From IMG/VR virus record IMGVR_UViG_3300047444_000247, positions 1 to 31,493 of that record: DNA of 31,493 nt; one strand, given 5' to 3'. Origin of the DNA: a virus. Numbering within the stretch: the stretch's first letter is position 1; each line of letters begins with the position of its first letter. Of the stretch, positions 19,224-21,263 are shown piece after piece. A program made the translations under genes and the position numbers. The notes below the pieces were generated by a model that saw only the letters and a list, made by a program, of their open reading frames with translations, was not told the DNA's origin and did not search any database.

Positions 19224-19517
19224 ATGACTACCGACCTGACGGAACGCATCCAAGCACGGGATGGCGTCGCCTGGGTGATCTACACCAAGCCGGACTGCCA
19301 GCCCTGCCGCATGACCAAGCGCAAACTCGACGCTGCCGGCATCTACTACACAGAAGTCGACGTCACCAAAGACGAAACCGCCCTCGCCTACGTGAAAGCC
19401 CTCGGATACACCGGAGCGCCCGTCGTCTACGTCTCCACGACCGACGGCGACTTCCACTGGTACGGACTGCGCAAAGACCTCTTGGACCTCTACATCGCCC
19501 AAGCGGAATCCGCATGA
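19224..19517 (+). CDS. Glutaredoxin-like redoxin (NrdH type)
   Basis: 97 residues; GAAGGA ribosome site. YTKPDCQPCRMTKRKL places a CQPC active site at residues 25-28; GYTGAPVVYVST carries the cis-Pro (P67) of the thioredoxin fold. The lack of an extended N-terminus and the length fit NrdH-like electron donors, which supply reducing power to ribonucleotide reductase and so raise dNTP supply during phage replication. No reductase gene is in the window, so it may serve the host enzyme. Confidence 0.85.
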   Translation: MTTDLTERIQARDGVAWVIYTKPDCQPCRMTKRKLDAAGIYYTEVDVTKDETALAYVKALGYTGAPVVYVSTTDGDFHWYGLRKDLLDLYIAQAESA

Positions 19518-19997: not shown

Positions 19998-21263
19998 ATG
20001 AGCCTACGACTAGGCGAACTTTGCGCCGGATACGGCGGTCTCGGCATGGCCGTTGAGGAAGTGTTCGGAGCTGAGTCGGCATGGTTCAGCGAGTTCGACG
20101 CTGCCCCGTCCAAGATCCTCGCCCACCACTGGCCTGACGTCCCCAACTACGGCGACATGACCAAGATCGACTGGGCCAACATCGAGTCCGTGGACATCAT
20201 CAGCGGCGGGACGCCCTGCCAGGACCTATCCGCAGCCGGCCGCCGCGCCGGCATGAACGAGGGCACCCGCTCGAACCTTTGGGTGCAAATGCGAGAAGCC
20301 ATCGTCATCCAAAAGCCGACCTACGTGGTCTGGGAAAACGTGAGAGGGGCCTACAGTGCCACAGCCGCTAGCGATCTGGAACAGTGCCCGGGATGCATGG
20401 GAGATACCGGGGACGGAGGGACTGTTCTGCGAGCACTTGGACGTGTACTCGGAGACCTTTCCGACCTCGGGTATGACACTCAATGGCGTGGCTTACGAGC
20501 TGCCGACGTGGAAGCCTGCCACGGACGATTCCGAGTCTTTGTCCTTGCTCAGGACCGTGATGGCGGACGAAGCCGGCGGCGGCCCGCTGTCACCCGCGAT
20601 GGCGAAGCACCGCGGGCAAACGCTACGCCTGACAGGTCAGATCATCGACCTCGTGGAACCGGGCAGGCTCCCGCAGCCGGGCGAGGCCACGACGGCAAAA
20701 CCCGCGGCACTGACGGCCGATTCGCACCCCTTGCTACCGACGCCGGTGTCGAGTCCTCCAGGAGGGACGCCAGAGAACCATCTTCGGAAGAAACCGGGCC
20801 GGAACGTCGTAACGGACCTTGCGATGCTTCTGGAGAACGACCTACTGGAGAGCGGCGGCAAGCTACTGCCGACGCCGACAGTCGGGATGATGATGGGCGG
20901 TTCGGAAACGCGCAGCGGGTCGCGGAACGGGGAGAAGCTACTCCCGGGAGTAGCGAAGGAGCTGGCACTGCTACCAACTGGGGAGAGTACGAACCCGCAA
21001 TCCGCCGATGGGAAGCTCGACTCGGACGGCCAGCTCCGAGGCCAACAGAACCTACTGGACGCAATAACGGCCACCGACTAAGCCCCCGATTCACCGAGTG
21101 GATGATGGGCCTGCCCGACGGATGGGTAACAGACCCAGCCATCGGGATCTCACGCAACGACCAACTCAAGGCCTGCGGAAACGGCGTCGTCCCCCAGCAA
21201 GCATTCGCGGCACTGCAGGACATGCTCACCGCATTCGCCCAACTCAGAAAGGAGGCCACCTGA
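19998..21263 (+). CDS. DNA cytosine-5 methyltransferase
   Basis: 421 residues, with GGA six bases before the ATG. Motif I ELCAGYGGLG (7-16), catalytic motif IV GGTPCQDLS (70-78, nucleophile C74), motif VI ENVRG (113-117), motif VIII with GRFRVFVLA (176-184) and motif X GNGVVPQQA near 394-402 are all present. A C-terminal block LSPRFTEWMMGLPDGW is typical of phage enzymes. It methylates cytosine in phage or host DNA; no cognate restriction gene is visible, so an anti-restriction role is likely. The region between motifs VIII and X (about 187-340) is Arg/Gly/Asp-rich and lacks motifs in this frame, while another frame of the same DNA looks protein-like (next entry). Confidence 0.92.
   Translation: MSLRLGELCAGYGGLGMAVEEVFGAESAWFSEFDAAPSKILAHHWPDVPNYGDMTKIDWANIESVDIISGGTPCQDLSAAGRRAGMNEGTRSNLWVQMREAIVIQKPTYVVWENVRGAYSATAASDLEQCPGCMGDTGDGGTVLRALGRVLGDLSDLGYDTQWRGLRAADVEACHGRFRVFVLAQDRDGGRSRRRPAVTRDGEAPRANATPDRSDHRPRGTGQAPAAGRGHDGKTRGTDGRFAPLATDAGVESSRRDAREPSSEETGPERRNGPCDASGERPTGERRQATADADSRDDDGRFGNAQRVAERGEATPGSSEGAGTATNWGEYEPAIRRWEARLGRPAPRPTEPTGRNNGHRLSPRFTEWMMGLPDGWVTDPAIGISRNDQLKACGNGVVPQQAFAALQDMLTAFAQLRKEAT
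20356..21081 (+). CDS. Overlapping ORF with LLPTP motifs, nested in the methylase gene
   Basis: 241 codons in another frame, from GTG 20356 with GAGAGGGG (20342-20349) six bases ahead, to TAA 21079-21081. It has a family-like opening, YSETFPTSGMTLNGVAYELP (31-50), then LLPTP at 126-130 and 160-164 and LLPTG at 185-189. I recognise this combination (SETxPxSGM, then repeated LPTP) from phage proteins associated with C5 methylases, where in some it is part of the enzyme's variable region. Here it is out of frame. It may be a real overlapping gene, an alternative version of the recognition region, or a conserved by-product of the methylase codons. Confidence 0.5.
   Translation: MPQPLAIWNSARDAWEIPGTEGLFCEHLDVYSETFPTSGMTLNGVAYELPTWKPATDDSESLSLLRTVMADEAGGGPLSPAMAKHRGQTLRLTGQIIDLVEPGRLPQPGEATTAKPAALTADSHPLLPTPVSSPPGGTPENHLRKKPGRNVVTDLAMLLENDLLESGGKLLPTPTVGMMMGGSETRSGSRNGEKLLPGVAKELALLPTGESTNPQSADGKLDSDGQLRGQQNLLDAITATD

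Follow-up and report, generated by a model that had tools for sequence, protein, structure and literature searches.

A phage C5-cytosine methyltransferase gene read in two frames, and its probable two-chain product

Does a stretch of some 240 codons inside a phage C5-cytosine methyltransferase gene encode two proteins at once and, if so, what would the second of these do? The question is raised by a DNA of 31,493 nucleotides, here called the window, which is the record of a temperate tailed phage with genes for an integrase, a RecE-like exonuclease, a single-strand binding protein, a terminase, a portal and a head protease. A preliminary description, made from the sequence alone, had noticed the two open frames and had considered a lasting double-coding arrangement, possibly giving two versions of the target-recognition region, or a frame switch after which one frame is dead. 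The analysis presented here makes it quite probable that a two-chain C5-cytosine DNA methyltransferase is encoded at the locus in overlapping frames, with the second chain, beta, providing the recognition domain in trans to the catalytic chain, alpha. The positions of both chains and of their parts are collected in Table 1. A small ORF with a thioredoxin domain (phrog_22; window 19224-19517) is situated just 5' of the methylase region.

Table 1. Features of the methyltransferase locus, in window coordinates
Feature	Position	Strand	Remarks
alpha, C5-cytosine methyltransferase chain, 421 aa	19998..21263	+	motifs I-VIII, linker, motifs IX-X
alpha catalytic domain, motifs I-VIII	19998..20552	+	HMM match 20004-20552
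alpha linker	20553..20978	+	unconserved Asp/Ala/Arg-rich read-through of the LPTP modules of beta
alpha C-terminus: WGEYEPAIRRWE, motif IX (RLSPRFTEWMMGLPDGW), motif X (LKACGNGVVPQQ)	20979..21260	+	alpha-type substitution phase
beta, +1-frame ORF, 241 aa	20356..21081	+	GTG start, TAA stop; putative target-recognition-type chain
beta ribosome-binding site AGAGGGG	20343..20349	+	within the alpha motif VI codons (ENVRGA); read directly
double-coding core, beta head (AIWNSARDxWE...SETFPTSGMTLNGVAYELP) over the alpha motif VIII region	20359..20552	+	both proteins conserved; HMM match 20359-20538
LPTP modules, beta frame	20553..20978	+	
beta module LLPTPVSSPPGGTPENHLRKKPGRNVVTDLAMLLENDL	20731..20862	+	recurs in frame 1 (type I/II loci) and frame 0 (type III loci)
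beta module LLPTPTVGMMMGGSETRSGSRNGEKLLPGVA	20863..20973	+	recurs, order shuffled, in other loci

The two chains and their homologous loci

Chain alpha is matched by PF00145 (E=2.5e-30, Pfam profile search), by phrog_363 (2e-67, PHROG profile search) and, by sequence as well as by fold, by M.HhaI. Its motifs I, IV (PCQ), VI (ENV), VIII, IX and X follow each other in the correct order for a C5 methylase. The AlphaFold2 model of the chain matches the folds of M.HhaI and M.HaeIII, with a pLDDT of 90-98 for most of residues 1-190 (lower at about 120-150) and of 96-98 for the C-terminus, to which residues 272-307 of M.HhaI, covering motifs IX and X, are aligned. Residues 205-311, in the linker, are unconserved and predicted to be disordered (pLDDT <50), so that alpha does not itself display a target-recognition domain between motifs VIII and IX. 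As the preliminary description had correctly read and placed them, the alpha frame gives motif VIII followed by LATDAGV and ATADADS, and the beta frame gives SETFPTSGMTLNG, LLPTPVS and LLPTPTV. The beta frame ends within the start of the alpha C-terminus.

Relatives of beta alone are found in 137 phage records. A profile search of the LPTP frame, proposed at the outset, proved informative: beta matches positions 71-204 of phrog_1008, annotated as 'DNA methyltransferase', and positions 214-323 of the same profile are matched by the alpha C-terminus. Therefore, the LPTP part and the methylase C-terminus are a single protein in some phages. Beta has no match in Pfam, nor in the PDB by sequence and profile search, and the low-confidence AlphaFold2 model of beta alone (mean pLDDT 64.7) has no fold match in the PDB. 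Pfam and PHROG searches detected no HNH domain in beta, phrog_1008 being the sole match.

In total, 171 unique homologous loci were mapped in phages, IMG/VR and actinobacterial genomes. They were translated in all frames, and three parts were located by HMM: the N domain, which is catalytic and spans motifs I-VIII, the beta head, and a C-terminus composed of WGxY, IX and X. All 171 loci have the beta head in the +1 frame, a count that is partly by construction since many were retrieved via that head; nearly all loci retrieved with alpha alone and having a full N domain and C-terminus carry the head too. The distance from motif VI to the beta head is near-constant in almost all mapped loci. Two of the 171, L181 and L214, have a stop codon within the head and may be decayed or recoded copies.

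The loci differ in the frame that encodes the remaining parts. In type I (n=42), motifs IX-X are in the beta frame. Type II (n=101), the window among them, has IX-X in the alpha frame, with the LPTP modules in that of beta. Type III (n=20) also has IX-X in the alpha frame, with a beta-frame stop well before them; in the loci examined, the frame-1 head is intact, and the run of LPTP modules has passed into the alpha frame, where it lies on a single chain between motifs VIII and IX. A broken second frame beside an intact methylase frame, the case that the preliminary description had set against double coding, thus occurs in type III only, and there in a limited sense, with the head retained and the modules moved into the methylase frame. 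In the remaining 8 loci, the C-terminus match is absent or in the third frame.

One locus departs further from these layouts. In L096 (2643-4091), alpha terminates within the linker and beta after several modules; further modules and motifs IX-X are encoded by a third ORF (MTDKLLPTP...), again in the alpha frame, so that this may be a three-chain version. Related loci occur commonly in the phages and chromosomes of actinobacteria, most of them with only one frame annotated. The public annotations of Abidatro (L005), MidnightRain (L003) and 1191A (L004) contain one frame only or a shortened, headless beta gene, and the beta chain is therefore largely missing from those records. MidnightRain and 1191A are isolated phages that share the layout of the window.

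Alpha is predicted to be disordered where a target-recognition domain is expected, and the type III loci have LPTP modules exactly there. Position and synteny thus point to beta as most likely the recognition domain in trans. Alpha would consist of the catalytic and cofactor motifs I-VIII, a disordered linker and then motifs IX-X. Beta, translated from its own GTG within the motif VI codons of alpha, would have a conserved head followed by LPTP modules that vary in set and are shuffled in order, and would fill in trans the interval between motifs VIII and IX that is the target-recognition domain in ordinary C5 methylases. The two chains would bind each other and beta would contact the target sequence; the complex would methylate DNA and could protect the phage from host restriction. 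That beta is real and translated but has another role, for example as a separate regulator, an adaptor or an antirestriction protein, is unlikely: its lack of any fold or sequence match to a known target-recognition domain would fit such a role, but the fusion of IX-X to beta in all type I loci, the placement of the type III modules inside the methylase chain and the annotation of phrog_1008 all tie it to the methylase.

Start of the beta chain and a frame change in Streptomyces

The proposal that the second frame has its own GTG and ribosome site holds. The Shine-Dalgarno-like AGAGGGG stands 6 nt ahead of the GTG. Of the near relatives, 16/17 have a beta-frame start together with a ribosome site (0.15 expected), as do 76/158 loci (3.2 expected), the expected counts being obtained by redrawing the alpha codons synonymously. 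Furthermore, ENVRG has its Arg encoded by AGA in 32% of the loci, vs 8% elsewhere in the gene. The ribosome site and start of beta are under selection, and beta is presumably translated from them.

A second kind of frame change affects alpha itself. In 23 loci, nearly all of them from Streptomyces (L191, L201, L214, L216-L219, L221, L226-L234 and L236-L241; at about locus position 2828-2860), alpha shifts frame by +1 at TTCCCCTGTCAAAGAC (TTC CCC TGY CAR AGR C), directly after the catalytic Pro-Cys-Gln. The coding-type substitution phase flips at this site, and in nearly all 23 loci there is no start codon ahead of the second alpha part. A programmed +1 frameshift is likely here; this candidate, if confirmed, would be a recoding site within a catalytic motif.

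Since this conserved frame change looks programmed, recoding seems to occur in the family, and it could be imagined that programmed frameshifting also joins the two frames of the methylase locus into one long chain, made up of the alpha N part, the LPTP modules and the C part. Such a fusion is nevertheless quite improbable. Beta has a selected ribosome site and start codon of its own, and the alpha frame of the type II loci is open across the whole linker, which a hop into the beta frame would not need. Moreover, the head overlaps motif VIII, and one of these two conserved segments would be lost on fusion.

Selection in the two frames

The GC content by alpha codon position is.60/.47/.81 before beta, ~.77/.57-.70/.50 over beta and.65/.47/.75 after it. 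The codon-phase GC switches to the beta frame exactly across 20356-21080, and the coding composition of the overlap therefore belongs to the beta frame. Among pairs of which the window is one member, the substitution rates at the three alpha codon positions are.130/.112/.395 in the N domain,.137/.086/.200 in the head,.443/.127/.122 in the linker and.095/.065/.418 in the C-terminus, and the sets of Arthrobacter-type phage, Leucobacter-type and Streptomyces loci agree with this pattern. Fourfold-site divergence in alpha is.537 in the N domain,.235 in the head and.582 in the C-terminus; in beta it is.210 in the head and.586 in the linker. Therefore, the head is constrained in both proteins, the linker in beta only and the C-terminus in alpha again.

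In the first ~60 shared codons, there is purifying constraint on both frames (synonymous divergence falls from 0.54 to 0.24). From the end of the head to about 20978, only the LPTP frame is conserved as a protein and the Asp/Ala-rich alpha reading is a passenger. Lasting double coding, as first suspected, is thereby upheld for both frames. The methylase frame, taken as the main one throughout, loses that rank in the long second part of the overlap, where the +1 frame is the conserved protein. The idea of two versions of the target-recognition region has to be given up as well, the alpha reading being unconserved and predicted to be disordered.

Although it is a passenger, the alpha linker is kept open. 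When synonymous beta codons were shuffled within each linker and the alpha-frame stops counted, about 155 stops were expected in the 101 type II loci and 0 were found, the linker being open in 101/101 loci vs 27 expected. In the 42 type I loci, where alpha need not read through, 381 stops were found vs 363 expected. Selection against stops therefore acts only where motifs IX-X are in the alpha frame. The case is a family-wide one: by the same shuffle, the open alpha linker of the window alone is not rare (P=0.18). The locus is, then, a same-strand overlapping gene pair with purifying selection in both frames, as seen from the fourfold sites in the head and, in the linker, from the beta substitution phase together with the avoidance of alpha stops. 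In the proposed two-chain enzyme, the alpha linker would be merely the beta gene read in the other frame, and its freedom from stops would let ribosomes through to motifs IX-X.

These data also bear on the view that a past frame switch has left alpha as the only functional protein and the LPTP frame as a relic that owes its openness to a GC-rich composition. Long open frames are common at high GC and all catalytic motifs are on alpha alone, but in the linker the beta wobble position is substituted 3-4 times as often as the other beta positions and, given the selected ribosome site of beta as well, a relic is very improbable. A frame switch with one frame now dead, as initially envisaged, is likewise at odds with the type II loci, which keep both frames open with the LPTP frame under purifying selection. 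Codon bias or a conserved mRNA structure mimicking a second frame, the dull alternative of the preliminary description, is hardly credible and was rejected: a structure could in principle produce the synonymous constraint of the head, but the constraint is strictly three-base periodic, in the beta-frame phase, over >400 nt, and the same modules are conserved as peptides in two frames, the type III loci carrying them in another one.

Movement of domains between the chains and known split enzymes

On the N-domain tree, from which L206 (false C-terminus assignment) and L096 were left out, motifs IX-X change chain at least 10 times, with at least 5 changes forced by the starred branches (type I label); some of these switches may instead stem from phage-to-phage recombination, which could inflate their count. 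Domains that are able to sit on either chain are to be expected if both chains form one enzyme, and the repeated switching of IX-X thus suggests one two-chain enzyme. In the isolated Arthrobacter phage Jinkies (L002, 2300-2340), the alpha frame reaches DWGAV, within the WGxY element, and stops, and the C-terminus continues in the beta frame. This is apparently a recent indel that shifted IX-X between the chains; the annotation of Jinkies holds only the beta-side ORF. The balance of the evidence leans towards a split C5 methylase family, widespread in actinophages and actinobacteria, with the recognition chain out of phase inside the catalytic gene, in which, owing to the shared overlap, single indels have repeatedly moved whole domains (IX-X and LPTP modules) between the chains and in which, with the Streptomyces +1 frameshift at Pro-Cys-Gln, every one of the three frames of a single strand is in use.

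The partition in the window fits neither of the closest known enzymes. In M.AquI, one chain holds motifs I-VIII and its partner holds IX-X along with some of the variable region (PMC3404938). The type I relatives share this partition. In contrast, the window has IX-X on the catalytic chain, an overlap of 241 codons and a second chain that begins within motif VI. The small subunit of M.EcoHK31I is reportedly read from an overlapping alternative frame. This enzyme needs two polypeptides, with motifs I-VIII, X and the target-recognition domain on the large chain and motif IX on the small one (PMC3404938). It resembles the present locus in having two polypeptides and a catalytic chain with I-VIII and X. 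In the window, however, the large chain keeps motif IX and has a linker predicted to be disordered, and the small chain takes the place of the recognition domain; LPTP modules have not been reported for M.EcoHK31I.

Out-of-frame HNH endonucleases in actinophage methylases (the ShiLan domain, Pacc40) are homing insertions that only some phages carry, and they lack a detectable ribosome site (PMC11855218). The likeness lies in an in-frame reading that is a disordered passenger and a GTG-started other frame that is the real protein. Their origin and function differ, beta being a fixed part of an enzyme, with a selected ribosome site, instead of a patchy HNH insertion. For the split-frame family, all that the literature (mainly openly available papers) yielded was methylase annotation of a general kind (Tweety, PMC2884959) and the paper on out-of-frame HNH endonucleases (PMC11855218). 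The PHROG database treats phrog_363, which matches alpha, and phrog_1008, which matches beta and the C-terminus, as separate methylases and leaves their overlap unrecorded, although they represent the same family. To our knowledge, long conserved double coding on the same strand is rare outside small-genome viruses, and its recognition usually rests on a single locus or a handful of them. In the present family, selection is seen across a large number of independent loci, and the relatives in which one frame need not stay open serve as an internal control.

The arrangement would explain the discordant 'DNA methylase' genes at the same place in phage and bacterial records, and it indicates that annotation pipelines discard a modular recognition chain. 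How split methylases divide labour between their chains can be tested directly, given the repeated movement of motifs IX-X. Finally, the swappable LPTP modules suggest a changeable specificity, which is relevant to the escape of phages from restriction.
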